Origin: Massilia sp. Root418
GTDB taxonomy: Bacteria > Pseudomonadota > Gammaproteobacteria > Burkholderiales > Burkholderiaceae_D
Direction of reading: 5' to 3'
Length of the DNA: 64,000 nucleotides
NCBI RefSeq assembly: GCF_001425265.1
Contig: NZ_LMEC01000023.1
Location: 62,001-126,000, forward strand
The translations under genes were made by a program, and so were the position numbers. Under the pieces are notes generated by a model. That model was not told the DNA's origin, made no database searches, and saw only the letters and a list, made by a program, of their open reading frames with translations. Below are positions 5,227 through 22,132 of the stretch, piece after piece. The number at the start of each line of letters is the position of its first letter. Position 1 is the stretch's first letter.

Positions 5227-5403
5227 TCAGGTTTCGTCGATATAGTAGCTGGCGCACAGAACGGCGCAGGAGATGCCGCCTGCCGCGTCGTCGAGTTCGG
5301 GGTCGGTCAGTTCCAGATCCTGCACTGGATCGGTTGGCCCTTTTTCGACCTGTGCTGCTTTCAGTTTGTCGCCCAGTTCATTGGCCAGGTTTTTATTGCT
5401 CAT
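5227..5403 (-). CDS. RiPP precursor peptide 4 (double-glycine leader, S-C-x-x-x-C core)
   Basis: This 58-residue open frame begins MSNKNLANELGDKLK and has the leader end DLELTDPELDDAAGG followed by the core ISCAVLCASYYIDET. The first 15 residues are identical to precursor 1 at 15241-15411, and the stretch before the double glycine matches all three upstream precursors. The ATG at 5403 is preferred over a GTG five codons earlier because it matches the start of the homologues. The core is the most divergent of the four: Ile replaces Gly after the cut site, Tyr-Tyr replaces Phe-Ser, and the end is acidic. It is the last gene of the locus, 93 bases after the binding lipoprotein and just before the terminator. 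Expected processing is cleavage after Gly-Gly by the C39 exporter. Confidence 0.82.
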   Translation of the reverse strand: MSNKNLANELGDKLKAAQVEKGPTDPVQDLELTDPELDDAAGGISCAVLCASYYIDET

Positions 5404-5486
5404 GCTGTCTACTTTCACAAGAAACGACTGCTAGTTTTAAGACATCAAGCCTGATCGGTCTTTCCTGCAAGAAGCAACAGGGACTG
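5404..5486 (-). repeat. Duplicated upstream region, copy B (before precursor 4)
   Basis: About 83 bases just upstream of precursor 4 are nearly identical to 15412-15495 upstream of precursor 1. A 41-base core (5423-5463 and 15431-15471) is identical. On the minus strand the core contains an imperfect inverted repeat, AAGACCGATCA and TGATGTCTT, followed by AAAACTAGCAG. TTGATG with GTTTCT 17 bases later could be a weak promoter. It is either a shared promoter/operator, an RNA element or the trace of a gene duplication. Confidence 0.85.
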
Positions 5487-5496
5487 GGGGCCGCGC

Positions 5497-6714
5497 TCAG
5501 GGCAGCGCCGACCAGGCCGGCCCTGCCGGCGGGGCCGCGTCGAAATACTCGAAGCGGCCGTTCCGCACCACCACCTTGGCCAGGCGCTTGGCCACCGGGT
5601 CGCCCTTGTCGTTGTAGACGTGGCTGCCGGTGGCGCCCTGCCAGCCGCGCGTGGCGCGCAGCGCCGCCGCCATCTGTTCGGGCACCGCGCTGTTGGCCTG
5701 CCGCACCGCGTGCGCCAGCAGCTGCAGGGCGTCGTAGCCCTGGGCGGCGGAACTGTCGGGCAGGCTGCCGTAGCGCTGCCGGTAGCGCGCCGCGAAGGCG
5801 CGCGCCTGCGGACTGGGATCGTCGGCGCTGAACAGCGAGAAAATCACCGTGCCCTCGATGTCGCGCCCGCCGCGCGCGATCAGTTCCTGCGAGTCCAGCC
5901 CCGCGCCGCCGAACACCGGCACCCGCAGCCCGGCCGCGCGCGCCTCGCGGATGATGACCGGGCTGTCCGGCATGGAGCCGATCAGGAAGATGGCGTCGGT
6001 CTTGAGCAGCGTGGACCAGTCGGCCATCAAGGTGCGGTGCTCGTTGGCCTCCATAGAGTAGGAGCGGCGGTCCGCCACCACGATGCCCAGCTCGTGGGCG
6101 CGCTGCTCGAAGCAGTTGGCCAGGTCGTTGCCGTAGTCGTTCTTGATGTAGTAGATGGCTACCCGCTTGTAGCCCTGGGCCAGCGCGTAGTCGCCGATCT
6201 GGCGCGCCTGGTCGCGGTTGTTGGGCAGGCTGCGGAACACCAGCCGCCCGCCCTGTTCGGTGACCTTCTGGCCGCTGGCGCCCGGCGTGATCATCAGCAG
6301 CCCGGCGCGCTCGTAGATTTGCGAGGCGGGTGCGGCCACGTAGGTGTTCAGGTGGCCGATCACGGCCGCCACGTCCAGGTTGTCGGCGATCTCCTGCGCC
6401 ACCTGGCGCCCGGTGGACAGCGAGCTGGCATCGTCCTTGACCAGCAGGCGGATCTTGCGCCCGCCCAGCACGCCGCCGGCGGCGTTGATCTCCTCCTGCG
6501 CCAGCCGCACCCCGTCCACCATGGCGGCCTTGCTGGAGTTCAGCGGCCAGGCCACGGCCACCAGCAGCTCGGCCTGCGGCGCGGCCAGCCGCTCGGCGCG
6601 GCGGCGCGCGGCGGGCTGCTCGTCGCAACCGCCCAAGGCCAGCAAGCCCGGCAAGCCCAGCAGTTCCAGCAATCCCAGCAGCGGCAGGGCGGCCGCCCGG
6701 CGTCTCTTGTTCAT
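5497..6714 (-). CDS. Periplasmic branched-chain-amino-acid-type binding lipoprotein
   Basis: A 405-residue type I periplasmic binding protein of the Peripla_BP_6 (LivJ-like) family. A signal sequence ends in the lipobox LALGGC near residue 30, so it should be lipid-anchored. Asp follows the Cys, which in enterobacteria favours retention in the inner membrane. Family segments include MVDGVRLAQEEINAAGGVLGGRKIRLLVKDD and FGGAGLDSQELIARGG. No cognate ABC permease or ATPase is nearby, so it is probably not part of a classical importer. It lies 9 bases after the exporter gene and 93 bases before precursor 4. A role in capturing or sensing the peptide is inference from position only. Confidence 0.82.
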   Translation of the reverse strand: MNKRRRAAALPLLGLLELLGLPGLLALGGCDEQPAARRRAERLAAPQAELLVAVAWPLNSSKAAMVDGVRLAQEEINAAGGVLGGRKIRLLVKDDASSLSTGRQVAQEIADNLDVAAVIGHLNTYVAAPASQIYERAGLLMITPGASGQKVTEQGGRLVFRSLPNNRDQARQIGDYALAQGYKRVAIYYIKNDYGNDLANCFEQRAHELGIVVADRRSYSMEANEHRTLMADWSTLLKTDAIFLIGSMPDSPVIIREARAAGLRVPVFGGAGLDSQELIARGGRDIEGTVIFSLFSADDPSPQARAFAARYRQRYGSLPDSSAAQGYDALQLLAHAVRQANSAVPEQMAAALRATRGWQGATGSHVYNDKGDPVAKRLAKVVVRNGRFEYFDAAPPAGPAWSALP

Positions 6715-6723
6715 ATCGGTCCT

Positions 6724-9621
6724 TTACACTAGTTGCCGCTTGGCCAGGCTGGCGAACACGCCGTCCCGCGCCATCAGTTCGTCGTAGTTGCCGCACTCGG
6801 CGATGCGGCCCCGTTCCAGCACGTAGATGCGGTCGGCGTTGCGGACGGTGCTCAGGCGGTGCGCGATCACTACCCGGGTCGCCTTCAGCTGCTCCATGCT
6901 GGCGCTGACGATGGCCTGGCTTCGGTTGTCCAGCGCGCTGGTGGCCTCGTCGAAGAACAGGATGCGCGGCTGGTGCACCAGGGCGCGCGCCACCAGCAGG
7001 CGCTGGCGCTGGCCGCCCGACAGGGTGCCGCCGCCGTCGCTGATGATGGTGTGCATGCCCATCGGCATGGCCTGGATGTCTTCCTCCAGCCCGCAGGCGC
7101 GCGCGGCAGCCCAGGCCTGGTCCAAGGTGAGCGTGCTGCCGCCGGCGATATTGCTGAAGATGTCGCCGCCGGCCAGGCGCCCGCTTTGCAGCACCACGCC
7201 CAGCTGGCGGCGCAGGCTGCCGATGTTGATGTCGCTGAGCAGGTGGCCGTCGTAATAAATGCCGCCGTGGCTGGGCTGCTCGAAGCCGAGCAGCAGGCGC
7301 AGCAGGGTCGACTTGCCCGAGCCGGACGCGCCCACCAGCGCGATGAACTCGCCCGGGGCGATGGCCAGCGACAGGTCGTCCAGCACCGGCGGGCTGCCGG
7401 GCGCGTAGGCGAAGCTCACGTGGCTCAGTTCGATCGCCCCGCTCAGCTCGCCAGGATCGGCCTGGCTGGCATCCATTTCTGGCTGCGCCAGCAAAATGGG
7501 CTGGGCCCGTTCGTAGGTGGAGGCGATCGACAGCACGTCCATGCCGGTGCGCACCAGCGACAGCGCGGCCGCCAGCAGCACGGTCCAGGCCGCGTTGAAG
7601 GCGATGAAGTCGCCGCTCGACAGGCGCGCCGTCTCCGGCTCGGCCAGCATGGCGGCAATGCCGCCGAACAGCATGGCCGAGGCGGCCACCGGGAAGGCGG
7701 CGCCGAACACCGCGCTGGCGTTGGCCAGCCGCCCGGCGCGCAGCGCGTGGCGCTTGTGCTCGGTGAACCGCGCCGCCCAGTTGGCGAAGGCGCGGCTTTC
7801 GGCGCCGGTCATGCGCAGCTTGGCGATGCCGCCCAGGTACTCGAACACCTGGCCGGCCAGGCGTCCGCGCAGCTCGCCGGCCACGCGCGTCACGCGCAGG
7901 CTGGCGTAGCCGAGCGCCAGGTTGACCGCTATCGCCACGGCCAGCAGCGCCAGCGCCAGCAGCGCCAGGCGGGCGCTGTAGTGCAGCAGCAGCAGCAGGT
8001 TGCACAGCGAGAACACGCTATTGATGATGCTGGCGATCACCGTGCCCGACAGCGCCTGGCGGATCTCGTTGATGCCGTTGATGCGGGTGGCCAGGTCGCC
8101 CGCCGTGTAACGCCGGAAGAAAGGCACCGGCAGCTTGAGCACGCGGTCCCACACGGCCGCCTGCAGGCTGCTGCCGGCCTTGCCCTCGATGCGCAAGGTG
8201 GCCACGGCGCGCGCGGCCTCCAGCATCAGCGTGACCAGGCTGGCCACGAACAGCATGGCCACCACCTGCACCATCTGGCCCCGGTCGGCGGCCGGGAACA
8301 CGCTGTCGAACAGGTGGCCGCTGGCCAGCGGGATGGCCATGGCCAGCACGGTGCTGGCCAGCGCGATGGCGGCAATGGTGGGCAGGTCGCCGCGCGTCTC
8401 GCGCGCCACGAAGCGCACCAGGTCGGTCCACGCCAGCGGCGCCGCCGGCAGGCTGCGGTAGAACATATACGCGTGCGGCAGCAGCGTTTCGGCGCTGGCC
8501 GCGTCCACCCGGCGCTGCTCGCCGCTGACCGGATCGCAGATGCGGTAGCCGCCGCCCGGCTCGGGCAATAGCGCCAGCGGCTGCTTGTCCTCGGTCAGGC
8601 CCAGCAGGGCGCCGCTGTCGTGGCGCCACCAGCCGTCGCGCAGCACCACCATGCGCATGCGCACCCCGGCCGCGCGCGTGAGGGCGGCCAGCTTGCCGCC
8701 GGCCGGGCCGGCCGAAGGCGGCGGCGCCGGGAACGCGATGCCGGCGTGCGCGCCCACCAGGCGGCAGGCCGCCAGCAGGCGGTTGTCGGCGTCGCCCGCC
8801 GGCGCGGCCGGCGTGCCGCCGCGGATCAGCGCGGCCATGCCGTCCAGCGCGCCGGCCATGGCTTCGCCGTTGAGTTGGCGTTGGCGCTGCAGGCGCGCCA
8901 GTTCCTGCTGCTGGCGCTGCCCGGCCGCCGCGATAGCCTGGCTGCACAGCGCGGCGCTCAGGCTGCCGAGCGCATCGAGCAGGCGCGCCGGCGGCAGCCG
9001 CTGGTACAGCTCGGCGGTGTGCTGCAGCTCCAGCGTCCCGCCGACCGCCAGCTCCAGCCAGCTGCCCGGCGGCACGGCCAGCACCTCGCCCACGCCGCAC
9101 GGCGCCGCGCCCGCATAGCCGGCCTGGCCGGCGGCCGGCAGCGCCCACAGGCCGCTGCGCTCGCTGTGCACGCAGGCCGGCGTGCCCTCGGCCGGTGCGG
9201 CGTGCGCCGGCCCCTGCAGCGCCACGCTGCCGGGCGGCGGCGCGGGCCAGGCGCCGGCCAGTGGCGCGGCCAGCTGGTCGAGCAGCTCGGCGGCCTGACT
9301 GGTATCGGCCTGGTCCAGCAGCGCCAGCAGGTCGTCCCGCGCCACCTGGCGCAGCCGCGCGCCGGCCGCCGGCACCAGCGCCAGCTGCCAGCCGGCCGCC
9401 AGTCCGGCCGGGCAGGGCGCCAGCAGCAGCGGCTGGCCGGGCGCGGCACCCAGCAGGTGGTGGCGCTGGCCGCCCGGCGCCACCAGGAACACGTCGGCGC
9501 CGCCGTGCTCGGCCAGCCAGGCCGCCGCGCCCTCGGCCTGGCTGGCCGGCGCGCCGGCGGCGCCGGCCTGGCCCAGTTGCCGCAGGCGCTGCTGCAGGCC
9601 GGAGGGGAGACGGTCATTCAT
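6724..9621 (-). CDS. NHLM-type bacteriocin ABC exporter, second subunit (no peptidase domain)
   Basis: A 965-residue fusion of a long N-terminal region (about 400 residues, rich in Ala, Pro and Gln), a six-helix exporter membrane domain and a C-terminal ATPase. Walker A is GASGSGKSTLLRLLLG, the signature is LSGGQRQRLLVARALV, Walker B is ILFFDEATSALDN and the H-loop is VVIAHRLSTV. The architecture fits the second ABC protein of NHLM (nitrile-hydratase-leader microcin) systems, which pairs with a peptidase-containing ABC protein. Its start overlaps the end of the upstream exporter gene by 8 bases, implying translational coupling. It probably forms a heterodimeric export complex with the 9614-11821 product, HlyD and TolC. 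Confidence 0.88.
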   Translation of the reverse strand: MNDRLPSGLQQRLRQLGQAGAAGAPASQAEGAAAWLAEHGGADVFLVAPGGQRHHLLGAAPGQPLLLAPCPAGLAAGWQLALVPAAGARLRQVARDDLLALLDQADTSQAAELLDQLAAPLAGAWPAPPPGSVALQGPAHAAPAEGTPACVHSERSGLWALPAAGQAGYAGAAPCGVGEVLAVPPGSWLELAVGGTLELQHTAELYQRLPPARLLDALGSLSAALCSQAIAAAGQRQQQELARLQRQRQLNGEAMAGALDGMAALIRGGTPAAPAGDADNRLLAACRLVGAHAGIAFPAPPPSAGPAGGKLAALTRAAGVRMRMVVLRDGWWRHDSGALLGLTEDKQPLALLPEPGGGYRICDPVSGEQRRVDAASAETLLPHAYMFYRSLPAAPLAWTDLVRFVARETRGDLPTIAAIALASTVLAMAIPLASGHLFDSVFPAADRGQMVQVVAMLFVASLVTLMLEAARAVATLRIEGKAGSSLQAAVWDRVLKLPVPFFRRYTAGDLATRINGINEIRQALSGTVIASIINSVFSLCNLLLLLHYSARLALLALALLAVAIAVNLALGYASLRVTRVAGELRGRLAGQVFEYLGGIAKLRMTGAESRAFANWAARFTEHKRHALRAGRLANASAVFGAAFPVAASAMLFGGIAAMLAEPETARLSSGDFIAFNAAWTVLLAAALSLVRTGMDVLSIASTYERAQPILLAQPEMDASQADPGELSGAIELSHVSFAYAPGSPPVLDDLSLAIAPGEFIALVGASGSGKSTLLRLLLGFEQPSHGGIYYDGHLLSDINIGSLRRQLGVVLQSGRLAGGDIFSNIAGGSTLTLDQAWAAARACGLEEDIQAMPMGMHTIISDGGGTLSGGQRQRLLVARALVHQPRILFFDEATSALDNRSQAIVSASMEQLKATRVVIAHRLSTVRNADRIYVLERGRIAECGNYDELMARDGVFASLAKRQLV

Positions 9622-11821
9622 TGGCGATCAGCTCCGCGTACTTGCCCTGCAGGGCAATCAGTTGCTCGTGGGTGCCGCGCTCGCGTACCTTGCCGCGTTC
9701 GAGCACGATAATTTCGTCGCAGTCGCGCACCGCGCTCAGGCGGTGCGCCACCACCAGGCAGCTGCAGCCGCGCCGGCGCAGGTGGCCGTCCACGGTCTGC
9801 TCGGTGAGCGGGTCGAGCGCGCTGGTGGCCTCGTCCAGTACCAGCAGGGTGGGGTTGCCCACCAGCGCGCGCGCGATCTCCAGGCGCTGGCGCTGGCCGC
9901 CGCTGAAGTTGGCGCCGCCCTCGTCGACCACGCTGTCGTAGCCGCCAGGGCGCGCCGCGATCATCTGGTGGGCGCAGGCGTCGCGCGCGGCCTGCAGCAG
10001 GTCGGCCTGGGCCACGGTGCTGTCCCACATGGTGAGGTTGTCGCGCACGGTGCCGCTGAACAGCGCCACGTCCTGGTCCACCGCAGCCAGCGAGTTGAGC
10101 AGCTGCTGGCGCGGCCATTCCTGGCGCGGCCGGCCGTCGAACAGGATGGCGCCGTCCCACGGCTGGTACAGCCCCACCACCAGCTTGGCCAGGGTGGACT
10201 TGCCGCAGCCCGAGCCGCCCACCAGCGCCACCCGCTGGCCCGGCTGCAGCACCAGGTTGAAATTCTCCAGCAGCGGCGGCTCCAGGCGGCTGTAGCCGAA
10301 AGTGACATTGCGGAACTCCAGCGCGCCGCTCAGCTTGGGGCTGTCCGGCGGCGGCCCGTCGGCGCTGGCGTCCTCGCAGCTGCTGCGCAGCACGTCGTCG
10401 AGCCGGTCCATGTCGCCCTGGAAGGCTTGCAGGCGCCCGCCCAGCGCCACCAGCGCGTTGACCGGGGCCACGAAGCTGGCCGACAGGGCCTGGAAAGCCA
10501 CCAGCGCGCCGATGGTCAGGTCGCCGTCCATCACGCGCAGCCCGCCCAGGCCGAGGATTAGCGCGGCGCTGGCGGCGGTGAGGAACTTGGGCAGCAGGTC
10601 CAGCACGATGGAGCTGCGGCTCATCTCCTGCATGGAGTTCATCAGGCGCGCCTGGTAGCCGGCCCAGCGGCTGAAGAAGTCGGCCTCGGTGCCGGAGGCC
10701 TTGAGCGTCTCGATCAGCAGCAGGCCGTTCATGGACGTGCCCATGACCTTGCCGGCGTCGATCGACATCTTCTGGTTCAGCTCGGTGCGCTGGCGCGCCA
10801 CCAGCCGCAGCACCAGCACGTTGAGCGCGGCGATGCCGATGGACACCAGGCTCATGGCCACGTCGTAGAACAGCATCACGGTGGCGAAGAACAGGCCGGT
10901 GAGCACGCTGAGCAGGCCGGACACCAGCTCTGCCGACAGCACATGCGCCACGCGGTCGTTCAGGCCCACGCGCGCCCCGATCTCGCCGGCCGAGCGCTGG
11001 TGGTAATAGCCGATCGGCAGGCGCAGCACGTGCCAGAAGAAGTGCGCCGCGCTGCGCAGCGCAATGCGCATTTCCAGCTTGAGCAGGTAGTGCTGCTGCA
11101 GCGCGGTGAGCGCGGCCATCAGCGCGGCGGTGGCGGCCATGCCGGCCACCAGCGGCGCGGCCCAGGACTGCAGCCCGCCCACCAGCACACGGTCGATGAA
11201 CACCGAGGTGAAAGCCGGCAGCACCAGCCCGGGCAGCGCCAGCGCCAGGCCCGCCAGCACCAGGTAGCCCAGCGCGCCGCCGGCGCCGCGCACCCGGCGG
11301 CGCAGGCTGGCCAGCAGGCTGGGCGGACGCCCCGAGGGCACGAAGCCGGGGCCGGGCACGCAGCTGAGCACCACGCCGGTGAAGCTCTGGTCGAACTCCT
11401 CGGCGCTCACGGTGCGCCGCCCCATGGACGGGTCGTTCAGCAGGACCTGGTCGCCGTCGAAGCCGTCCACCACCAGGAAGTGGTTGAAGTTCCAGAACAC
11501 GATCAGCGGCATGGGCATGGCGCGCAGTTCGGCCGGTTCCTTGCGCAGGCCGCGCGCCTCCATGCCGTAGCCGCGCGCGGCGCGCACCACGTTGAGCGCC
11601 TTGCTGCCGTCGCGCGACACGCCGCACGCCACCCGCAGTTCCTCCAGCGGCACGTATTTGCGGTAAAAGGCCAGCACCATGGCCAGCGCGGCCGCGCCGC
11701 ACTCGACCGCCTCCATCTGCAGCACCGACGGCGAGCGCGCCGGCCGGCGCGGGGCCAGGCGGCGCCAGCGCGGTTTCAGTGCCAGCAGCGCCCGCGCCGC
11801 CTGCAGCAGCAACGGGCGCAC
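9614..11821 (-). CDS. NHLM-type peptidase-containing (C39) ABC exporter
   Basis: A 735-residue peptidase-exporter. The GTG at 11821 is chosen because it overlaps the HlyD stop as TAGTG; the frame extends upstream only inside hlyD. The N-terminal C39 peptidase shows the oxyanion Gln and catalytic Cys in LQMEAVECGAAALAMVL, the His in NFNHFLVV and the Asp in LNDPSMGRR, so it should be active. It is expected to cut leaders after Gly-Gly, which all four precursors have. A membrane domain follows, then an ATPase with Walker [15 protein letters not shown], signature FSGGQRQRLEIARALV and Walker B LLVLDEATSALDP. It acts in the inner membrane with HlyD and TolC. Confidence 0.92.
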   Translation of the reverse strand: MRPLLLQAARALLALKPRWRRLAPRRPARSPSVLQMEAVECGAAALAMVLAFYRKYVPLEELRVACGVSRDGSKALNVVRAARGYGMEARGLRKEPAELRAMPMPLIVFWNFNHFLVVDGFDGDQVLLNDPSMGRRTVSAEEFDQSFTGVVLSCVPGPGFVPSGRPPSLLASLRRRVRGAGGALGYLVLAGLALALPGLVLPAFTSVFIDRVLVGGLQSWAAPLVAGMAATAALMAALTALQQHYLLKLEMRIALRSAAHFFWHVLRLPIGYYHQRSAGEIGARVGLNDRVAHVLSAELVSGLLSVLTGLFFATVMLFYDVAMSLVSIGIAALNVLVLRLVARQRTELNQKMSIDAGKVMGTSMNGLLLIETLKASGTEADFFSRWAGYQARLMNSMQEMSRSSIVLDLLPKFLTAASAALILGLGGLRVMDGDLTIGALVAFQALSASFVAPVNALVALGGRLQAFQGDMDRLDDVLRSSCEDASADGPPPDSPKLSGALEFRNVTFGYSRLEPPLLENFNLVLQPGQRVALVGGSGCGKSTLAKLVVGLYQPWDGAILFDGRPRQEWPRQQLLNSLAAVDQDVALFSGTVRDNLTMWDSTVAQADLLQAARDACAHQMIAARPGGYDSVVDEGGANFSGGQRQRLEIARALVGNPTLLVLDEATSALDPLTEQTVDGHLRRRGCSCLVVAHRLSAVRDCDEIIVLERGKVRERGTHEQLIALQGKYAELIANE

Positions 11822-13086
11822 TAGTCCAGGCCCGCGGCTTTTTTCAGCAGCGGGATCAGCAGTTCGATGGGGCGCTGCTCGGCGATGGTGATCAGGGCCG
11901 AGCACGAGGTGCCGCTTTGCAGCGGGAAGGGCGGCCCGGTGCGGGTCGACCAGCGGTAGCGGCTGGCGTTCCCCGGCGCCGGCTGCAGCGCGGCGCGGAT
12001 CTGGATCGGCGCTTGCGCTCCGCTCAGCTGCTGCACCAGCTTGTCGTTGCCGAACACCCGCATCAGGCCCTGGTCGGTGGACGGGTAGTCCGCCACCGCC
12101 GACACGTAGGCCGGCAGGAAACCGAACTCCTCGCGCTTGGCGGTGCTGGGGCTGATTTCCACGCGCATGCCGCGCGCCACCTTCTTGCCGTCCAGCGCCG
12201 GCAGGTAGAGGTAGGCCTCGATCTCGTTGGCGTCGATGCCGGAGGCCTCCACGCTGAGCAGCGGCGTGCCGCGCTCGACCAGCTGGCCCTCGCTGGCCTT
12301 GATCTCCAGCACCCGCCCGCTGTACGGGCTGACCACGGCGTTGAACTCGCGCGTCTCGCGCACCATCAGGTCCAGCCCGCGGCGCGCGTCCTCCAGCGCG
12401 TTGCGCGCCAGCACCAGCTCGTTGCTGCTCTGCTTCTGCTGCTCCAGCACCGTCACGTCCAGCTGCTTGAACTGGCCCAGCACGTTCTGTTCTTCAAGCT
12501 GGGCGGCGGTCAGCTCTAGCTGCGAAGCGATCAGGGTCTGGCGCGTGATCAGGCCCTGGTCCAGCAGCGCGCCCTGGGTGGCGATGCGCTCGCGCAGCAG
12601 GCCGGTGCGCTGGCGCGCCGAGGCCAGGTGCTCGCCCAGGCTCTGGCGCTGCTGGCGCGCGGTGGCTGCGCGCAGCGCCGCGCCCTGCTCGGCCATGGCC
12701 TGCGCCTGCTGGTACTGCGCCTGCACTTCGCGCACCCGGCTCTCGGCGGCGTGGATCTTCTTGAGCAGGTCGCCCTGTTCCAGACGGCCGACGATCTGGC
12801 CCGCCGCCACCCGGTCGCCGACCTCCACCGACAGGTCCGACAGGCGGCCGCTGGCGGCCGTGGTCAGCACCCCCACGCCGCCGTGCTTGAGCAGCATGCA
12901 CTGCTGTCCGGGCAGCTTGGTGGGCAGCTTGCCGAACACCGACCACAGCACCGCCGCCAGCAGCAGCAGCCCGATGCCGGCCAGCGCCAGCCAGCCGCGC
13001 GGCGTGGTCACCTGCAGCAGGCGGTCGAGTTCCTCGGGGGAGGATAAGCGGGCCAGCGCGGCTGGCCGGAAAATGCCTTTGGTCAT
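11821..13086 (-). CDS. HlyD-type membrane fusion protein of the NHLM export system
   Basis: A 421-residue periplasmic adaptor. It has a short cytoplasmic N-terminus (MTKGIFRPAALARLSSPEEL), one membrane helix near residues 32-52, a long coiled coil near 110-250 rich in Gln and Glu, and a barrel-sandwich segment (SPYSGRVLEIKASEGQLVERGTPLL). The N-terminus matches NHLM secretion proteins, so the ATG at 13086 is preferred. A TTG at 13110, overlapping the upstream stop, would add eight residues. Neither has a clear ribosome site. It bridges the two ABC exporters to the outer membrane TolC. Confidence 0.88.
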   Translation of the reverse strand: MTKGIFRPAALARLSSPEELDRLLQVTTPRGWLALAGIGLLLLAAVLWSVFGKLPTKLPGQQCMLLKHGGVGVLTTAASGRLSDLSVEVGDRVAAGQIVGRLEQGDLLKKIHAAESRVREVQAQYQQAQAMAEQGAALRAATARQQRQSLGEHLASARQRTGLLRERIATQGALLDQGLITRQTLIASQLELTAAQLEEQNVLGQFKQLDVTVLEQQKQSSNELVLARNALEDARRGLDLMVRETREFNAVVSPYSGRVLEIKASEGQLVERGTPLLSVEASGIDANEIEAYLYLPALDGKKVARGMRVEISPSTAKREEFGFLPAYVSAVADYPSTDQGLMRVFGNDKLVQQLSGAQAPIQIRAALQPAPGNASRYRWSTRTGPPFPLQSGTSCSALITIAEQRPIELLIPLLKKAAGLD

Positions 13087-14864: not shown

Positions 14865-15014
14865 TTAGTTATCCATCAGGCTGAAGGTGCCGCACATGGC
14901 GGCGCAGGAGCCGCCGCCGGCCACGTCATCCAGTTCGGTGTCGGTCAGTTCCAGGTCTTGCTCTTGTTGCGGCTGGGTGTCTTTCAGGGCGTCGCTCAGT
15001 TGTTTGTTGCTCAT
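14865..15014 (-). CDS. RiPP precursor peptide 3
   Basis: A 49-residue open frame starting MSNKQLSDALKDTQ, with leader end DLELTDTELDDVAGG and core GSCAAMCGTFSLMDN. GGAG lies 6 bases before the ATG. The leader is shorter than in the other precursors, but the last 15 leader residues and the first 12 core residues match precursor 2. The Met-Asp-Asn tail is unique. It lies 34 bases after precursor 2 and 123 bases before the TolC gene. Conservation across four frames, ribosome sites and neighbouring maturation genes support it as real despite its size. Confidence 0.85.
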   Translation of the reverse strand: MSNKQLSDALKDTQPQQEQDLELTDTELDDVAGGGSCAAMCGTFSLMDN

Positions 15015-15048: not shown

Positions 15049-15204
15049 TCAGGCCAGCGAGAAGGTGCCGCACATGGCGGCGCAGGAGCCGCCGCCCGCC
15101 ACGTCGTCCAGGTCGGCGTCGGTCAGTTCCACGTCCTGCGTGGCTGGCACGTCGGCCTGGTTCAGGGTGGTGGCCAGGGTCTCGTTCAATTGTTTGTTGC
15201 TCAT
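15049..15204 (-). CDS. RiPP precursor peptide 2
   Basis: A 51-residue open frame starting MSNKQLNETLATTLNQ, with leader end DVELTDADLDDVAGG and core GSCAAMCGTFSLA. AGGA precedes the ATG at suitable spacing. The core is 13 residues if cut after Gly-Gly. It is the middle of three tandem precursor genes, with gaps of 36 and 34 bases. The leader is acidic before the cut, the core nearly neutral, with two Cys three residues apart, as in the other copies. Confidence 0.85.
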   Translation of the reverse strand: MSNKQLNETLATTLNQADVPATQDVELTDADLDDVAGGGSCAAMCGTFSLA

Positions 15205-15240: not shown

Positions 15241-15411
15241 TTAGGCCAGCGAGAACGACTGGCACATGGCGCCGCAGGAGCCGCCGCCGGCCACGTCGTC
15301 CAGCTCGGAATCGGTCAGTTCCAGGTCTTGCACCGGGCCGGTGTGGCCGGTCTTGACCAGTGCTTCTTTCAGTTTGTCGCCCAGTTCATTGGCCAGATTT
15401 TTATTGCTCAT
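15241..15411 (-). CDS. RiPP precursor peptide 1
   Basis: A 56-residue open frame starting MSNKNLANELGDKLK, with leader end DLELTDSELDDVAGG and core GSCGAMCQSFSLA. It is the first of three tandem precursors and lies 106 bases after the substrate-binding protein gene. Its leader and the 84 bases upstream are almost the same as those of precursor 4 at the far end of the locus, which points to a relatively recent duplication. The double-glycine site fits the C39 exporter. The two Cys (C-x-x-x-C) are the obvious targets for modification, although whether the radical SAM enzyme acts on them is not shown by the sequence. Confidence 0.87.
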   Translation of the reverse strand: MSNKNLANELGDKLKEALVKTGHTGPVQDLELTDSELDDVAGGGSCGAMCQSFSLA

Positions 15412-15495
15412 GTTGTCTACCTTCAGAAGTAACGACTGCTAGTTTTAAGACATCAAGCCTGATCGGTCTTTTCTTGCAAGAAGAAACAGGGACTG
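15412..15495 (-). repeat. Duplicated upstream region, copy A (before precursor 1)
   Basis: Counterpart of 5404-5486, sharing a 41-base identical core at 15431-15471 and about 90 percent identity overall by hand alignment, with one single-base gap. The outer part carries the perfect palindrome TTCTTGCAAGAA, which is degraded in copy B. Both copies begin shortly after the stop of a periplasmic binding protein gene and end at the precursor ATG. Confidence 0.85.
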
Positions 15496-15517: not shown

Positions 15518-16609
15518 CTACTCGCGCGCGTCGGCTGCCTCGGCCGGCGAAATGAGCTCGGCCAGCTTGACCACCGACAGCGGCGGGAACACGCCCAGCT
15601 TGCGCGCCGAGGCCATGTTGACCAGGTAGGTGAACCGGTTCAGCAGCTCGATCGGGATCTGCGACACCTGTTGCTGGCCGCTGAGGATGAGCTGGGCCTT
15701 GGAGGCGGCCAGCTCGCCCACGTTGGCGTAGGTGCTGACCACGCCCAGCAGGGCGCCGTGCTGGCGGATTGGCGCCTCGGTGGCGGAAAACACGGGAATC
15801 TGCGCCGCGTAGGCGGCCTGCACCACGGTGCGCGCGTGCTTGATCAGCAGCGAGTCCGACGGCAGGTAGATGAACTGCGGCTTCTTCGCCACCACTTGCC
15901 GCATCAGCGCCGCCAGGGCCGCCTCGGACACCTTGCCGCGCCCTTCGTCGGGCACCGGCGCCATCTCCAGCGTCATGCCGTAGCGCGGCGCGATCTGCTC
16001 CAGCTGCTGCACCGCCAGCGCCGAGTTGCGCTCCTGCGGGTTGTACACCACGGCCATGGTGCGCGTGCTGCGCATGGCTTGCAGCGCCTTCATCTGGTCG
16101 CCCAGCGGCACCATGTGCGAGGCGCCGGTCAGGTTGCGGCCGGAGGCGGCCATGCTGGTCACCAGGCCGGCGCCGACCGGGTCGGCCACGATGTTGAACA
16201 CCACCGGGATGTCGGTGATGTTGCGCGCCGGGTCCACCTTGCCGACCTGGCCGGCCACTTCGGCCGTGACGGTGGTGCCGAAGGTGTAGATCAGGTCCGG
16301 CCTGAGCTCGCGCGCCTCGCGCACGAAGCCGGCGATGCGGGCATTGTCGGCCTGCGCGTCGCGCACGATGAACTCGACCGGGATGTTGTGGCGGCGGAAG
16401 TAGTCCATGAAGCCGCGCTCGGCGTCGGTGGCGCCGCGGTACAGGATCATCATGATGCGGTAGGGCTTGACCGTGGCCGGCGCCGGCGCGGCGGCGGACG
16501 CGGAAACCGCAGCGGAGGCCGGCACCGAGGCGGTGGCCGGGCCGTCGGCGCGGGCGCCGGCGGCGCAGGCGAACAGGCACAGCGACAGTGCGAGATTACG
16601 AAACAGCAT
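15518..16609 (-). CDS. ABC-type substrate-binding protein (ABC_sub_bind/TrpX-like), orphan
   Basis: A 363-residue exported binding protein with signal peptide LALSLCLFACAAGARA and an Ala/Ser/Pro-rich linker to about residue 47. The mature part resembles the ABC_sub_bind (TrpX/YtgA-like) family: YRIMMILYRGATDAERGFMDYFRRHNI at the start, then DLIYTFGTTVTAEVAGQVG and IPVVFNIVADPVGAGLV. It overlaps the upstream sensor-MFS gene by 14 bases and is followed by precursor 1. No permease or ATPase of an importer is present, so it may work as a periplasmic receptor for the MFS fusion or for the peptide. The family is different from that of the lipoprotein at 5497-6714. Confidence 0.82.
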   Translation of the reverse strand: MLFRNLALSLCLFACAAGARADGPATASVPASAAVSASAAAPAPATVKPYRIMMILYRGATDAERGFMDYFRRHNIPVEFIVRDAQADNARIAGFVREARELRPDLIYTFGTTVTAEVAGQVGKVDPARNITDIPVVFNIVADPVGAGLVTSMAASGRNLTGASHMVPLGDQMKALQAMRSTRTMAVVYNPQERNSALAVQQLEQIAPRYGMTLEMAPVPDEGRGKVSEAALAALMRQVVAKKPQFIYLPSDSLLIKHARTVVQAAYAAQIPVFSATEAPIRQHGALLGVVSTYANVGELAASKAQLILSGQQQVSQIPIELLNRFTYLVNMASARKLGVFPPLSVVKLAELISPAEAADARE

Positions 16610-18629
16610 TGCCAGTTTCCTTTCCTTGGAAGAGGGCGGCGCGCCCCTGTTGACGTTCGAACCAGAAGAACAGCCCGGTGAAGCAGGTCGTGCACAGCAG
16701 TGAAATCAGGCCGATGCCGAGGAACGCCTGGCGGAAGCCGAACTGCGAGATCAGCAGGCCGGCGATGATGGGGCCGAGCACGTTGCCGGAGCGTTCGATC
16801 AGGCGGAAGATGCCGGTGGCCGTGCCGCTGCCGACCTGCTGCACCACGTCCTGGCAGAAGTCGTTGATCAGCGCCAGCTGCGGCGACACGCCGATCGAGT
16901 GGGCCACGCCCAGCAGGGTGATGGCGGCCAGCGCGCCCGGCGTGCTGTCGTAGAAATAGATCACGAACATGGCCGCCGCCGCCGCGTAGCCGCCCACGCT
17001 GACGAAGCCGCGCAGCCGGCCCAGGCGGTCGGCCGCCTTGGCGATGGCCGGCGAGAGCAGGATGATGGCCAGGCCGTAGGCCATCATCACGCGCCCGGTG
17101 GCGGACTGGTTGTTGCCCAGCAGTTTCAGGTACAGCGGCGCCGAGTAGTACAGGAAGCCGGTCAGGGCGATCTTGGCCGGCACGGCTGCCAGGAAGGTGA
17201 TGGCCACGAAGTGCTTATTGCCCAGCAAAATCTTGAAGTCCTGCCGGTTGAGCTTTTTGCGCGGCGCCGCGCTGCGGTTGGGGTCGGCATGCAGGAAGCG
17301 CAGCACGAAGGCGGCGGCAGCCAGGCTCAGCAAAGCGGACAGCAGGATGGTGTGGCTGTGGCCGAGCCGGTCCGACAGGATGCCGCCGATGGCCGAGCCG
17401 GACAGCGAGCCGGCGAAAAAGCTCGACAGGAACACCGCCATGCCGCGCGTGCGCTGCGCCGGCGGGGTATGCGCGGTGACGTAGCTTTGCGCGGTGATGA
17501 ACACCAGGCCGTAGCCCAGTGCGGTCAGCGAGCGCCACAGCAGCAGGTCGTACAGGCTGTGCGCGCCGGCCGTGAGCACCAGGCCGGCGGTGGTGATGGC
17601 CGCGCCCACCACGAAGGCCTTGCGGTGGCCCACGTGATCGCTCCAGGCGCCGGCCCAGGGCATCGACAGCGCCCAGACGAACATGAACACCGAGATCGGC
17701 AGGCCGACCACCAGGTCGCGCGCCAGGCCCATGCCGGGCTCGTAGAACTGGCCCACGTAGACCGGGAAAAAGCTCAGCGACAGCGAGTCCGCGAAGATCA
17801 GCAGGAAGAAGGGCCAGCGGATATGGTCCAGCGCGGCCGCGTACAGAGTGCTGCGCTGGCCCGGCGCGTGGAAGCGGAAGCGCGCCGCCGCCGCGCCGTC
17901 CGCCAGGGCGTGGTAGCGCTGGTTCAGCACCGCCACCACGTGGTTGAAATGCGCACTGAGCTGGCCCACGCCGCCCAGCCGGTCAAACGGCAGGTAGTGG
18001 CGGAAGTCGCCGGCGCGGATGTGCTGCAGGAAGTCGCGCATGGCACAGGCCGGGGTGGCGATGACGAAGGACAGCACGAAGCGCATCAGTTCGAAGGCGA
18101 TCAGGCTGGCCACCACCAGCACGGTGGCCACGTCGTAGGAGATTTCCTGCAGGCGCTGCTGCACCAGCGAGGCGCGCTGGCCCAGGTGCAGGGTGCCGAC
18201 CCGCTGGCGCTGGAACACCAGGGGCACGCTGGTGTTGAAAAAGCCGTCCACGGTGTCGGTGCCGATGTCGCTGCCGGCGCGGCCGAACAGGGCCAGCAGC
18301 GGCGGCGGCGCCTGCCAGCGCGGCTGGCCGCGCTGGTACAGCACAGTGCCGCGCGCGTCTGCCACCACCACGTAGGCGATGGCGGGATGGTCCTTCAGCA
18401 CGCCGTCCAGGAATTCCTCTGTGCCCACCAGCTGTTCCAGCGGGATGCCGCTGACGTAGGCTTTTTCCAGCACATCCGATACGGAGTAGCTGAGCGCGGT
18501 GACGGTGCGCGCCATCTCCGGCGGCAGGTCGTGGTGGAAGTTGCGCAGCACCAGCGCGGCCAGCGCCAGCGTGGCCAGTATCATCAGCGCCGCCACCATC
18601 AGGCTCAGCCGGGTTTGCAGGCTTTTCAT
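16596..18629 (-). CDS. Fusion of a periplasmic sensor module, HAMP-like segment and MFS transporter
   Basis: A 677-residue protein. A membrane helix at about 8-29 is followed by a periplasmic domain to about 165 that looks like a Cache/CHASE-type sensor (HPAIAYVVVADARGTVLYQRG is the usual PAS-like strand pattern). A second helix covers 168-190, then a HAMP-like segment near 190-240 (FLQHIRAGDFRHYLPFDRLGGVGQLSAHFNHVVAVL). From about residue 265 an MFS transporter of about 12 helices runs to the end, with the loop GAWSDHVGHRKAF. The start at 18629 overlaps the stop of the upstream sensor gene (ATGA). An export or uptake role tied to sensing is inferred. I do not know a characterised protein with this layout. 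Confidence 0.82.
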   Translation of the reverse strand: MKSLQTRLSLMVAALMILATLALAALVLRNFHHDLPPEMARTVTALSYSVSDVLEKAYVSGIPLEQLVGTEEFLDGVLKDHPAIAYVVVADARGTVLYQRGQPRWQAPPPLLALFGRAGSDIGTDTVDGFFNTSVPLVFQRQRVGTLHLGQRASLVQQRLQEISYDVATVLVVASLIAFELMRFVLSFVIATPACAMRDFLQHIRAGDFRHYLPFDRLGGVGQLSAHFNHVVAVLNQRYHALADGAAAARFRFHAPGQRSTLYAAALDHIRWPFFLLIFADSLSLSFFPVYVGQFYEPGMGLARDLVVGLPISVFMFVWALSMPWAGAWSDHVGHRKAFVVGAAITTAGLVLTAGAHSLYDLLLWRSLTALGYGLVFITAQSYVTAHTPPAQRTRGMAVFLSSFFAGSLSGSAIGGILSDRLGHSHTILLSALLSLAAAAFVLRFLHADPNRSAAPRKKLNRQDFKILLGNKHFVAITFLAAVPAKIALTGFLYYSAPLYLKLLGNNQSATGRVMMAYGLAIILLSPAIAKAADRLGRLRGFVSVGGYAAAAAMFVIYFYDSTPGALAAITLLGVAHSIGVSPQLALINDFCQDVVQQVGSGTATGIFRLIERSGNVLGPIIAGLLISQFGFRQAFLGIGLISLLCTTCFTGLFFWFERQQGRAALFQGKETGNAVS

Positions 18630-19483
18630 GGCTGCGCTCCCGCCGGCGCGGCGCCGGGCTGTTGCTGTGTCTGGTGCTGTGCCTGGGCCAGCGCCTGCGC
18701 GGCTTCGCGGCTGACCGCGATGAACTGCGCCACGTCGTCGGCCATGTCGCCGCCGGCGCCGTCGGCAGTCTGCGCGCTGGCCGGAACCGGCACCGGGGCC
18801 GGTGCCAGCGCGCCGGCGATGGCGCCGGCCAGGCGTTCCAGCTGGGCGGCGAAGCTGCGCGTCATCAGCAGCACAGCGCCGCTCACGCACAGCGCCGCCA
18901 GCGCCACCACGGCCAGGTAGTCCAGCGCCAGCTTGGTGCGCATGGCGGCGATGGCTTGTTCCACCGGCGCGCGCGCATAGCCGATGACGATCACGCCGGC
19001 CTTGCCGCCGAAGCTGTTGGCGAAAGGCATGCCCAGCTGCAGGGTGGCGTCGTCCGCGTCCTGCCAGTAGGCGTCGGCGGTGGCCTTGCCGGCCAGCGCG
19101 CGCCAGGCGGCGGGACTCAGCGCCGGTAGCGCGCCGCTGCCCACCACCTCGCCGGCATCATCGGCGATGGCGACGTAGCTGATGCCGGTCTGGCGCAGGC
19201 CGATGCGTTCCAGCACCGCCATCAGCTGCACGTTGGCGGTCGGGCGCAGGCCCAGGTTCAGGCCCGCTTCCACGGTCTGGCGCACGTCCTTCGCCAGCAC
19301 GAGATGGCGGCTCAGGTTCAGGTTCAGATAGGTTTTACGGTAGTTCGAATAGTTCAGGAAGACCTGCAGCGCCAGCATGACGGCGAACACGAGGCACAGC
19401 AACGCCGCGATGCGCCACCAGATGCGCCGGGGTTGCGGCGCCGTTCCGGACGGGGTGCCGTGCTGCTTTGCGCTCGCTGCCAT
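18626..19483 (-). CDS. Membrane sensor protein with Cache-like periplasmic domain and no output domain
   Basis: A 285-residue protein with a membrane helix near 23-45, a periplasmic region of about 140 residues, a second helix near 190-210, and a Pro/Ala/Gln-rich cytoplasmic tail. The periplasmic part includes LERIGLRQTGISYVAIADDAGEVVGSG, the strand pattern of Cache domains. No kinase, cyclase or methyl-accepting domain follows the second helix. GGGAGG precedes the ATG. The next gene has a similar two-helix sensor module fused to an MFS transporter and overlaps this one by 4 bases, so the two probably form a complex. Function is otherwise unknown. Confidence 0.7.
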   Translation of the reverse strand: MAASAKQHGTPSGTAPQPRRIWWRIAALLCLVFAVMLALQVFLNYSNYRKTYLNLNLSRHLVLAKDVRQTVEAGLNLGLRPTANVQLMAVLERIGLRQTGISYVAIADDAGEVVGSGALPALSPAAWRALAGKATADAYWQDADDATLQLGMPFANSFGGKAGVIVIGYARAPVEQAIAAMRTKLALDYLAVVALAALCVSGAVLLMTRSFAAQLERLAGAIAGALAPAPVPVPASAQTADGAGGDMADDVAQFIAVSREAAQALAQAQHQTQQQPGAAPAGAQP

Positions 19484-19494
19484 ATGCCCTCCCT

Positions 19495-19690
19495 TGCGTT
19501 GCGTTGCGTGACGTTGCGTTGCGCCACGTTGCGATACGTGTCTACCCGCCGGGGCGCTGGCGTCCCGGAAGTCCCTGTGTCGATGTGCTTGCCGGCCGTG
19601 CCGGCGATGGTGCCGATGCTGCTGCTGCCGATGCCGCTGCTGATGCCGCTGCCGCTGCTGCCGCTGCTGATCCTGGTGCCGGCCCTTGTG
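19495..19690. repeat. Low-complexity intergenic repeats
   Basis: The gap between the sensor gene and the upstream unknown gene contains two simple-sequence tracts. One has GTTGC/GTTGCGTGAC-like units at about 19495-19535. The other is rich in CTG and CCG triplets at about 19615-19675. The promoter for the 19483 gene, if separate, must lie here, but no clear -35/-10 pair is visible. Confidence 0.6.
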
Positions 19691-19700
19691 CCGGCCCGGA

Positions 19701-20756
19701 TCAGGCCGCCAGCATGGCCGGCGGCGCCGCCGCCAGTGCCTGCAGCCAGTGGGCCGCGCCGGCGCGCACGGTGCCGTCCATGCGGGCGGCCTGGCGCAAG
19801 CCCTCCAGCCTTGCCTGCACCGCCGCTCCCAGCGGGCCGTGCGGCCCCCCCGCCTGGTCCAGCAGCGCCGTCAGCAGCAGCAATTGCAGCGTGGACGGCA
19901 GCGGCGCCAGTTGCAGCGCCGCCGGCTGGTCCGGCAGCTGGCCCGGCAATGGACCCGGCAGCTGGCCCGGAACCATCGGCGCGCCTGACTGCAGCGCGGC
20001 CAGCAGCAGGAAGCCCTGGCGCACCGGGCTGTCGCGCCAGGCGCCGCAGCGCGCGGCCACGGCGGCGGCCAGCCGCGCAATCAGCTGCGTATCGCCGCTG
20101 CCGAGGATCTTGAATAGCACTTCGTCGGCGTAGTGGTTGGCGCAGGACGCCAGCGCGGCCGGGTCCAGCGCCTGCTCCAGGCTGCCGTGCGGATAGCGCG
20201 CGGAAGGGCCGGTGCCGTACAGCAGGTCCAGCAGTTCAATGGCGCTGTGCAGTGCCGCGTCGGCGCGGCGGTAGGCGGCGTGCGCGCGCAGCAGGTTGAG
20301 CAGCTGGTCGGCAGCGCCCACCAGGGCCACCGCGAAGCCGCCGGCGTGCAGCTCGCCCAGCGCATCCAGTCCGCGCTCCAGTCCCGCCAGCGCTTCCTCG
20401 TAGCGGTCTTCGTAATAGGCCTGCAAGGCTACTGCCGGCTGATACAGCGCGGCGATGCCGGCGCGCGCGGTGGCCGATTGCGGCTGCCATGTGGCGCCGT
20501 CCAGCGCGCCACGCCAGTGCGCGATCTGCGCCGTTTCCCGGGCCCGCACGCTGGCCACCAGTTTGCGGATCAGGCTGTGGCGGTACATCATGTCCAGCTG
20601 GCCGGCGGCCGGTTCAGCCTCGCTGCAGTAGGCCAGGATGTCGTAGAAAATATGGTCGCGCTTGAACAGCGCGGCCGGCTCGCCGCCGCTGGCCAGCAGC
20701 TCGGCGAGCAGGTCGCCAGGCGGCTGCGCCGGGTGGATACCGCCGCGCGCCATCAT
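19701..20756 (-). CDS. Unknown helical protein coupled to the radical SAM enzyme
   Basis: A 351-residue, Ala- and Leu-rich, probably all-helical cytoplasmic protein with no signal peptide. Pieces such as QAYYEDRYEEALAGLERGLDALGELH look like tetratricopeptide-type helix pairs. Near the C-terminus the motif PGQLPGPLPGQLPDQP is a short Pro/Gly/Gln repeat. Its ATG at 20756 overlaps the radical SAM stop (ATGA), so the two are translationally coupled and likely act together. It could be a partner or scaffold for precursor binding, but I recognise no family. Confidence 0.75.
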   Translation of the reverse strand: MMARGGIHPAQPPGDLLAELLASGGEPAALFKRDHIFYDILAYCSEAEPAAGQLDMMYRHSLIRKLVASVRARETAQIAHWRGALDGATWQPQSATARAGIAALYQPAVALQAYYEDRYEEALAGLERGLDALGELHAGGFAVALVGAADQLLNLLRAHAAYRRADAALHSAIELLDLLYGTGPSARYPHGSLEQALDPAALASCANHYADEVLFKILGSGDTQLIARLAAAVAARCGAWRDSPVRQGFLLLAALQSGAPMVPGQLPGPLPGQLPDQPAALQLAPLPSTLQLLLLTALLDQAGGPHGPLGAAVQARLEGLRQAARMDGTVRAGAAHWLQALAAAPPAMLAA

Positions 20757-22132
20757 GCCGCCTCCGCCGCTGGCGCTTCGCTCAGGCCGCCCTGCTTGAG
20801 CAGGTGGTTCAGCAGCAGCTTGTCCTCGATATTGGCCTTGTAGGACGGGCAGGCCACGTCGCCGTTCAGCCATTGCTTGGGACAGGCGCCGCCGCATATC
20901 GGCAGCAGGTTGCACTTGCGGCAGGGCGCCACGTCGGTCTTGATTTCCTCGTACCACTGCTTGGTGACCGCCTTGTCGTTGCGCACGGCGTCGATGGTGT
21001 CGACGTGGCCGATGCGGTAGCGCGCGTCCTCGTACTTGGGCGTGTAGGGAAACTCGTAGCAGGGGAACACATTGCCCGACACGTCGAACACCTCGGCGTC
21101 CTTCTCCACCACCATGCAGGGCTGGGTGCGGCGGCCCGGCACGATATTGCTGAACTTGAAGCCCTTGCGGATGGCGTACATGATCCAGTCGATTTCCGCT
21201 TCTGCGAACTCTTCCTTGGTCAAGCTGTAGTCGTCGGCATTGTTGCCGCCCCAGTCCACGATGGGCTGGAAGTCGATGGTCACGCCCTTGCCACCCAGGC
21301 CGTACTGCGCCAGCCGGTCGATCAGCTTGTAGATGGCTTTCACGCTGGTGCGGTTGACGTTGACGCGGATGGCGATGCCGCATTTCTCGGCGCCGAACTC
21401 GGGCAGGCTGGTCACCTCCAGGATGTTGCGCACGATGATCTCGAAGGTCTTCTTGCCCTCCTTGGTGATGCGCATCAGGTCGTGCGTGGCGCCCACGCCG
21501 TCCAGCGTGATCTGGAAGTGCTTGATCTGCTGCTCCACCAGTTTGAGGAAGATGGCCGGCTTGAAGTTCAGGCCGTTGGTGATCATGTGCGCGCTGTAGC
21601 GGATGCCGCGCTCGGCGCAGTGGCTGCGCAGGCGCTCGCTCATCGACAGGATTTCGCGGTAGGCCATCAGCGGCTCGGCGCCGAACCACTGGATGGCCAG
21701 GCGTTCGTATTGCGGCTTGGCCAGGTTGCTGAAGATGCGGTTGACGATTTTGTCGCTGGTGGCCTGGTCCAGGTTCTTCTTGGAATGAACCTGGCCGCAG
21801 TAGGTGCAGCCCAGCTGGCAATTCGCGGTGGGCTGGATGGTGGCGCTCAGGATCTTGGTGTCGGCCGTCGCGGCGACGTTGCGCTTGAGTATTTCAGCGA
21901 ACTCGTCCTCGTCCGCCGGCACGATCGCTTCCAGGTCGATCAGGGTGGCCAGATGGCGCGTGTTGAGCGCCGTGAAATCACCGGCTTTTAAATTGGAATA
22001 GACCCTGTCTTTAATCAGGAATGTTTTGCCCGTGCGGGTTGCATATAACAAGCGGGAGGGGTCGCTGTCGAATTCCGGGTTAATCAGGTCGGTCAGGACG
22101 ATATATGAGGAAAGCTTGTAGTTGGCTGTCAT
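20753..22132 (-). CDS. Radical SAM/SPASM peptide maturase
   Basis: A 459-residue radical SAM enzyme. The [4Fe-4S] Cys are C105, C109 and C112 (CQLGCTYC). A C-terminal SPASM domain holds extra Cys at about 404, 407, 413, 417 and 428 (CRKCNLLPICGGACPKQW, then DVACPSY), plus GNVFPCYEF upstream. Residues 1-85 (SRLLYATRTGKTFLI, then VYSNLKAGDF and IVPADEDEF) resemble the N-terminal RiPP-recognition-like region of peptide maturases. Such enzymes install thioether, carbon-carbon or epimerised residues in peptides. It is the first gene of the locus. The ATG at 22132 lacks a strong ribosome site. The target is presumably the four precursors, and the chemistry is unknown. Confidence 0.9.
   Translation of the reverse strand: MTANYKLSSYIVLTDLINPEFDSDPSRLLYATRTGKTFLIKDRVYSNLKAGDFTALNTRHLATLIDLEAIVPADEDEFAEILKRNVAATADTKILSATIQPTANCQLGCTYCGQVHSKKNLDQATSDKIVNRIFSNLAKPQYERLAIQWFGAEPLMAYREILSMSERLRSHCAERGIRYSAHMITNGLNFKPAIFLKLVEQQIKHFQITLDGVGATHDLMRITKEGKKTFEIIVRNILEVTSLPEFGAEKCGIAIRVNVNRTSVKAIYKLIDRLAQYGLGGKGVTIDFQPIVDWGGNNADDYSLTKEEFAEAEIDWIMYAIRKGFKFSNIVPGRRTQPCMVVEKDAEVFDVSGNVFPCYEFPYTPKYEDARYRIGHVDTIDAVRNDKAVTKQWYEEIKTDVAPCRKCNLLPICGGACPKQWLNGDVACPSYKANIEDKLLLNHLLKQGGLSEAPAAEAA

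Follow-up and report, generated by a model that had tools for sequence, protein, structure and literature searches.

The locus described here runs from position 22132 to position 5227 of a 64,000-nucleotide stretch of Massilia sp. Root418 (contig NZ_LMEC01000023.1; the whole stretch is called the window), with every gene on the minus strand. It is probably a maker of ribosomally synthesized and post-translationally modified peptides (RiPPs) seated on a reusable export-and-sensor chassis with an exchangeable payload. The chassis consists of eight genes, encoding a Cache-like membrane protein, a fusion of a Cache-like sensor with a major facilitator superfamily transporter (Cache-MFS), a COG2984-type binding protein, TolC, HlyD, two ATP-binding cassette proteins (ABC1 and ABC2) and a Peripla_BP_6-type (BP6) lipoprotein. 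The payload includes a radical S-adenosylmethionine (SAM)/SPASM maturase, a tetratricopeptide repeat (TPR)-like protein as its putative partner, and four precursor peptides. To judge from gene content across genomes, there is little doubt that chassis and payload should be separated in this way. RiPP clusters are usually taken as single units, and the comparison presented here parts a conserved chassis from its cargo.

The gene order, from position 22132 downwards, is that of the list below, and neighboring genes overlap by a few bases at the junctions radical SAM/TPR-like, Cache-like/Cache-MFS, Cache-MFS/binding protein and ABC1/ABC2. The genes reported in an earlier reading of the window (the initial annotation) were all recovered at their positions and in a single direction, including the four short precursors with double-glycine (GG) leaders; the 351-aa TPR-like gene (20756-19701) beside the radical SAM gene was absent from its list. 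An Rfam scan of 5100-22600 gave no score close to a gathering threshold.

20753..22132, minus strand: radical SAM/SPASM peptide maturase, 459 aa (payload; TIGR04085 SPASM, motifs)
19701..20756, minus strand: helical TPR-like protein, 351 aa (putative payload partner, presumed function; 4-nt overlap with the radical SAM stop)
18626..19483, minus strand: Cache-like membrane protein, 285 aa (chassis; homology to the fusion N-terminus; no output domain recognized)
16596..18629, minus strand: Cache-like/HAMP-like linker/MFS fusion, 677 aa (chassis; MFS_1)
15518..16609, minus strand: periplasmic binding protein ABC_sub_bind/COG2984, 363 aa (chassis; PF04392, 7.3e-34)
15440..15468, minus strand: upstream element of precursor 1, GACCG-N12-GTCTTAAAACTA
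15241..15411, minus strand: precursor 1, 56 aa, core GSCGAMCQSFSLA
15049..15204, minus strand: precursor 2, 51 aa, core GSCAAMCGTFSLA
14865..15014, minus strand: precursor 3, 49 aa, core GSCAAMCGTFSLMDN
13107..14741, minus strand: TolC-type outer-membrane protein (chassis; PF02321, 103 bits)
11821..13086, minus strand: NHLM HlyD (chassis; TIGR03794, 310.5 bits, cut-off 156.2)
9614..11905, minus strand: NHLM ABC1 with C39 peptidase (chassis; frame open from 11905, real start perhaps near 11821)
6724..9621, minus strand: NHLM ABC2 (chassis; TIGR03797, 901.5, cut-off 709.4)
5497..6714, minus strand: lipoprotein binding protein, Peripla_BP_6 (chassis; PF13458, 176.6 bits)
5432..5460, minus strand: upstream element of precursor 4, letters identical to the precursor 1 element
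5227..5403, minus strand: precursor 4, 58 aa, core ISCAVLCASYYIDET (inside a 213-nt duplication of the precursor 1 region, 85%)

The chassis genes occur jointly. Two profiles were run on 392 genomes of the family, with the best two or three candidates scored per genome. That for Cache-MFS found seven genomes at 1e-150, namely the host, Massilia rhizosphaerae and five genomes designated by number (G342, G074, G289, G176 and G022). That for ABC2 found 18 at 1e-200, and its eight (nearly) full-length matches are these seven genomes plus G402; a BP6 protein, 47% identical, stands next to ABC2 in one of the remaining ten, G038. Neither Cache-MFS nor this ABC2 clade was present in 384 genomes, and one had the exporter only. 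Fisher tests, in which genomes are treated as independent despite their relatedness, gave 3e-14 for Cache-MFS with the ABC2 clade and 2e-7 for Cache-MFS with the radical SAM gene. All eight genes stand together in six of the seven Cache-MFS genomes, with payload genes interspersed among them in three (the window, M. rhizosphaerae and G176); the chassis halves are convergent in G342, and in G074 about 40 kb separate the export block from the trio (Cache-like protein, Cache-MFS and COG2984 protein). Identity to the window proteins is 64–67% for Cache-MFS and 36–41% for the Cache-like protein in the six other chassis genomes, 62–70% for ABC1 in seven genomes and 38–52% for TolC in seven other genomes.

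The payloads found on this chassis are of several kinds: the window-type radical SAM enzyme with two-Cys precursors, another Cys-peptide enzyme, and XyeB/FxsB-like enzymes (XyeB scores of 321 and 275, below the cut-off of 450) with LanB-type or HExxH genes. The window-type payload is present in the host, M. rhizosphaerae, G342 and G074 and absent from G289, G176 and G022. The G176 radical SAM enzyme differs from that of the window (25% identical over 310 aa; best families TIGR04463 and Clo7bot, under cut-off) and accompanies two precursors ending in SCTNSGC and SCGGNMQC; its 395-aa neighbor has a helical look by eye. G022 and G289 encode XyeB/FxsB-like enzymes 74% identical to each other, precursors ending in GGSVHLNGHGNVVVT and GGQVHLNSGHVDVKVT, a HExxH protein (the G022 copy, which was scanned, is unrecognized by every library) and both LanB-type halves, 59–60% identical between the genomes (N-part from G022, PF04738; C-part from G289, PF14028). 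On the chassis contig of G342 there are two related radical SAM genes, of which the one scanned is XyeB-like, and genes for two proteins of the mod_HExxH type, of which one was scanned (TIGR04267). The window-type payload of this genome is on a different contig, where no exporter homolog occurs in the stretches fetched. That payload island (L032 9000-13300) is low in GC content at third codon positions (0.51 vs. about 0.9) and adjoins two identical tRNA-like sequences, noticed by eye with no tRNA search made; one precursor copy inside it is interrupted by a stop codon. The identity of chassis proteins to those of the window does not track the payload, and in the chassis trees G022 and G289 group at 100 with a backbone of 39–61. 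By this comparison, the chassis genes are inherited together while the payload changes; with four payload kinds across seven genomes, the chassis is usable as bait for new peptide classes.

The window-type payload is itself a coherent set. A radical SAM scan of an 84,980-species collection, which detects close relatives only, returned a single relative, M. rhizosphaerae, whose 21-kb locus (L002) contains every part at 33–70% protein identity and two precursors ending in CKAMACGVF and CSAMACGVF. A repeated TTCGGGGTCAGAGC-type motif, resembling a dispersed repeat, was seen by eye at the end of that locus (L002 21160-21356). Because M. rhizosphaerae has every part and a precursor profile finds only the window frames in the host, the locus is more than a chance assembly: the profile, built from 14 intact precursors, matches just the four window frames in the whole host genome (7.27 Mb), and their own match is given by construction, which is not the case for the absence of further ones.

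A radical SAM profile at 1e-60 matched 7 of the 392 family genomes. Five are close (E < 1e-190): the host, M. rhizosphaerae, G402, G342 and G074 (two copies); two are distant (G035, 35%, and G096) and were left out of the group; the 20 kb fetched around each showed no convincing GG precursor with two Cys. Within the host genus, 17 of 74 genomes have a radical SAM match at 1e-3, with only the host itself above 35% identity. Matches of the precursor profile number 4 in the host, 2 in M. rhizosphaerae, 3 in G402, 5 in G342 and 2 in G074; of those in G342, a stop codon interrupts one and another is weak (E 0.048). The same profile gave no match in G022, G289, G176, G035 or G038, G096 lying outside that search. 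When 279 family genomes were drawn and 23 candidates scored in each, precursors appeared at 1e-5 in two, the host and G074, both with the radical SAM gene; the other three payload genomes are taken as not drawn. Precursors separated from the maturase, which the initial annotation had named as evidence against its proposal, were not seen, the enzyme being present in 5 of 5 precursor genomes and in 2 of 2 from the draw. The same five genomes encode the BP6-type protein (5/5) and the COG2984 protein (4/5). G402 combines exporter, BP6 protein, radical SAM enzyme, TPR-like protein and precursors, and in its genus Cache-MFS occurs in 1 of 62 genomes.

The precursor leaders of the window terminate in LDDxAGG and are followed by cores of 13, 13, 15 and 15 residues, each with two Cys. 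The regions of precursors 1 and 4 form the 213-nt duplication (85%), with leaders agreeing at 35 of 43 residues and cores at 4 of 13, the usual pattern in which the leader is conserved and the core varies. GG is present in 14 of 14 intact precursors, across which the two Cys are the sole invariant core residues; their spacing is C-x3-C in the window and G402, C-x4-C in M. rhizosphaerae and C-x5-C in G342 and G074. Of precursors 1 and 4, the two scanned, the first scored 13.4 bits against the 50.9 of the NHLP leader model TIGR03793 and the second gave no match. The GG sites coincide with a Peptidase_C39 domain in ABC1 (PF03412, 6.1e-34), the combination expected of a GG leader and its C39 exporter, and cleavage would take place there. 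An extra small GG frame without Cys, MSNEKSTDV...VVGGLRRYNYSLPER, lies between the TolC and TPR-like genes of G402 (L030 9474-9640 region; joined stretch 21476-21640) and was left out of the precursor counts.

SPASM domains are defined by the cysteine patterns Cx(9-15)Gx4C and Cx2Cx5Cx3C, which occur in the window maturase at 339 and 404 in addition to the CxxxCxxC motif; the radical SAM/SPASM patterns were found in 4 of 4 members examined. The enzyme scores 45.3 bits with the SPASM model TIGR04085 (cut-off 27) and 19.0 with Pfam SPASM, under the cut-off of 21.5, and its best family is TIGR04463 at 234.8 bits, below the cut-off of 525 (G074 copy, 210.5). For the neighboring TPR-like protein no family was recognized in library scans. 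Its predicted structure is helical throughout (pLDDT 70.9), and in a Foldseek search the best E was 0.12 with none at 0.001, which makes the TPR likeness a fold impression only; homologs are encoded in M. rhizosphaerae (33%), G402 (33%) and G074 (26%).

The exporter proteins belong to the NHLM class by curated cut-offs (ABC1, TIGR03796, 1057.2 vs. 853.3; ABC2, TIGR03797, 901.5 vs. 709.4; HlyD, TIGR03794, 310.5 vs. 156.2), which bears out, together with the maturase motifs, the initial assignment of a radical SAM/SPASM enzyme and a dual-ABC NHLM exporter with HlyD. The two binding proteins, described initially as unrelated, indeed fall into different families (PF04392 and PF13458). The BP6 protein has the lipobox LGGC followed by D; a lipobox is present in 9 of 9 sequences examined, with Asp next in five, and the closest solved chain is 4mlc (4.5e-68).

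Concerning the sensors, the MFS half of the fusion is firm (MFS_1, 145.5 bits, cut-off 33.4), while the Cache label of the initial annotation is weak. Pfam Cache models do not match the separate sensor of the window and reach the fusion only at 0.048 (sCache_3_2); two relatives give sCache_3_2 at 9.7e-4 and dCache_1 at 2.9e-4, each under the curated cut-off. The fusion N-terminus yielded a poor predicted model (5-strand periplasmic part, pLDDT 52), and a fold search with it was dropped for that reason. The Cache-like protein is homologous to this N-terminus (hhalign probability 95.9, E 6.1e-9), and a heterodimer of the two would be in keeping with that. Residues 200-249 of the fusion match a histidine-kinase chain at profile level (E 4.5e-5) with no Pfam HAMP match, suggesting a HAMP-like linker; Pfam scans found no kinase domain in either window sensor. 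By sequence, the nearest solved chains of the MFS half are VAChT, EmrB and NorA, mostly efflux or antiport proteins. The COG2984 protein scores 121.5 bits with the TrpX model NF041285, short of its cut-off of 390, and has 3lkv, 3lft and 6hni as solved relatives; its C-terminus is DARE in all seven chassis genomes examined (window 15518-15529). In G074 a 1537-aa hybrid histidine kinase frame (HAMP, PAS, HisKA, receiver, Hpt) stands between the trio and the radical SAM genes (L034 8557-13170) and is a possible partner of the trio there.

In the favored model, the radical SAM/SPASM enzyme would modify the two-Cys core of the GG-leader precursors, with Cys thioether links as the chemistry preferred on balance, and the adjacent TPR-like protein would act as its partner, a role that is conjectural. 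Judging from protein families, the C39 domain of ABC1 would cleave after GG, the modified peptide would very likely leave through ABC1/ABC2, HlyD and TolC across both membranes, and the BP6 protein would be anchored as a lipoprotein. The soluble binding protein may present a ligand to the two homologous membrane sensors, one of which has an efflux-type MFS as output. Ligand gating of this MFS is a conjecture and rather doubtful. Equally tentative is the bolder form of the idea, in which the binding protein and a heterodimer of the homologous sensors directly gate the MFS, and this portable gate, joined to the NHLM exporter, constitutes a general ligand-gated RiPP delivery chassis whose cargo is exchanged. 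The sensor-MFS fusion makes it testable whether a periplasmic sensor can directly gate a transporter.

Alternatively, the whole locus could be dedicated to a single peptide of 13–15 residues, which it would make, export and then sense or capture in a quorum-type loop with the binding proteins as peptide receptors. The unidirectional genes with several overlaps agree with this, as does the presence of the COG2984 protein and the trio in four of the five genomes with the window-type payload, and the pairing of binding protein and periplasmic sensor in LuxPQ offers a precedent. However, the trio and binding proteins accompany other peptides in G022, G289 and G176 and lie beside other maturases in G342, the trio is absent from G402, and the solved relatives of the binding proteins are, by name, of amino-acid or small-solute type. 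The trio also stands alone. A Cache-MFS profile at 1e-50 matched 5 of 369 genomes of the class, the host among them, and trios with no NHLM or radical SAM gene in the stretches fetched were found on host contig C1, in G751 and in G531. The host copy (G000:C1:185286-189087; L061 7287-11088) is diverged, its Cache-like match being weak (27%, E 7e-9), and the 20 kb fetched there contain neither RiPP nor NHLM genes; that of G751 adjoins a dCache-HAMP-cyclase and an HDOD gene. G621 has Cache-MFS and the COG2984 protein on a 4.3-kb contig, and in G694 the match is restricted to the MFS half. Since it also occurs alone, in the host genome included, the trio seems to be an older unit for sensing and transport that was recruited to this locus, and the joint inheritance of the chassis together with the stand-alone trio points to a general unit of this kind joined to an exporter serving several peptide classes. 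The quorum-type loop is therefore unlikely: sensing of the product is conjectural, and the view that the trio senses the system's own peptide is not supported. The initial claim of one system thus holds insofar as the parts belong together (5/5 precursor genomes with the radical SAM gene) and fails for a peptide-specific one, given the other maturases on the chassis, the solitary trios and G402.

Less probable still is chance adjacency, in which a transport trio that senses nutrients or stress merely lies next to an unrelated RiPP exporter locus. Four other places have the trio by itself (one of them only in part), it is missing from G402, and in G074 it is distant from the exporter; against this, the exporter clade is present in all 7 Cache-MFS genomes and adjoins the trio in six, a count uncorrected for genome relatedness. 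A metal-binding peptide, its two Cys and the capture proteins serving metal export or scavenging, would account for these being the only residues that never vary in 14 cores and is very improbable, as radical SAM/SPASM enzymes are expected to make thioethers of Cys and the families found in the cluster include no metal transporter or metal regulator.

Several points weigh against the interchangeable chassis favored here. It is known from seven genomes only, and its weakly supported tree backbone makes the number and direction of payload swaps uncountable. G402 lacks Cache-MFS at 1e-120, the Cache assignment is weak, and the separation of payload and chassis on different contigs in G342 and of trio and exporter in G074 leaves joint function unestablished. 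Product, ligand and cross-link are predictions from the genes.

The exporter and maturase classes are already known; searches of an open-access library brought up neither the eight-gene chassis with its sensor-MFS trio nor the precursor family. No description of this combination was recognized there, which agrees, as limited evidence, with the initial statement that no described family has it. All three window exporter proteins are members of the NHLM/NHLP system, from which the locus differs by its non-NHLP leaders, the added TolC, the two binding proteins and the sensor-MFS trio. NHLM/NHLP exporters beside different modifying enzymes (cyclodehydratase, LanM) have been noted before (Haft et al., 2010; PMC2887384), in a paper whose main text does not contain the terms "binding protein," "radical SAM" or "MFS." The best-scoring maturase families, TIGR04463 rSAM_vs_C_rich, CefB and Clo7bot (235, 168 and 155 bits), have Cys-containing precursors, yet the window enzyme is far under their cut-offs (525, 600 and 600) and the window differs by its short core, in which three to five residues separate the two Cys. 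Ranthipeptides and sactipeptides, whose products carry Cys thioether cross-links, share a radical SAM/SPASM enzyme and Cys in a short core, the window cross-links being predicted from genes. XyeB/FxsB cyclophane RiPPs, LanB-type and aKG-HExxH hydroxylase genes are found on the same chassis in G022, G289 and G342; the maturase and precursors of the cyclophane class differ from those of the window, which lacks these genes. Like LuxPQ, the trio pairs a soluble binding protein with a membrane-bound periplasmic sensor, but it has no kinase, an MFS transporter as output and a second, homologous sensor.

An element of about 30 nt, GACCG-N11..14-GTCnnnAAACTA, lies upstream of precursor genes. The pattern was derived from these sites and matches there by construction. 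In 20 whole genomes it has nine matches, each 28–35 nt ahead of a precursor start and all in the five payload genomes, with none in the other 15, including three that have the chassis with other payloads. A reversed control pattern gave 19 matches over the 20 genomes (0–3 per genome), that is, about one stray match per genome is expected, and the absence of stray matches is thus only moderate evidence; more telling is the conservation of the element between genera whose radical SAM enzymes are 53–63% identical. An exact match is missing in 6 of 15 precursor frames: window 2 and 3 and M. rhizosphaerae 2, each behind another precursor, the second and the broken copy in G342, and a distant frame in G402 that has the element in degenerate form only. 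Being common to precursor genes of four genera, the element offers a handle on regulation. With a spacing that varies from 11 to 14 between lineages, the element was not taken for a sigma-factor promoter, and an RNA hairpin is unproven, single-strand folding giving an AAGAC/GTCTT stem in some copies and none in others. The element carries the short dyad AAGAC...GTCTT with lineage-specific spacing (M. rhizosphaerae, L002 11436-11464; G402, G342 and G074 stretches).

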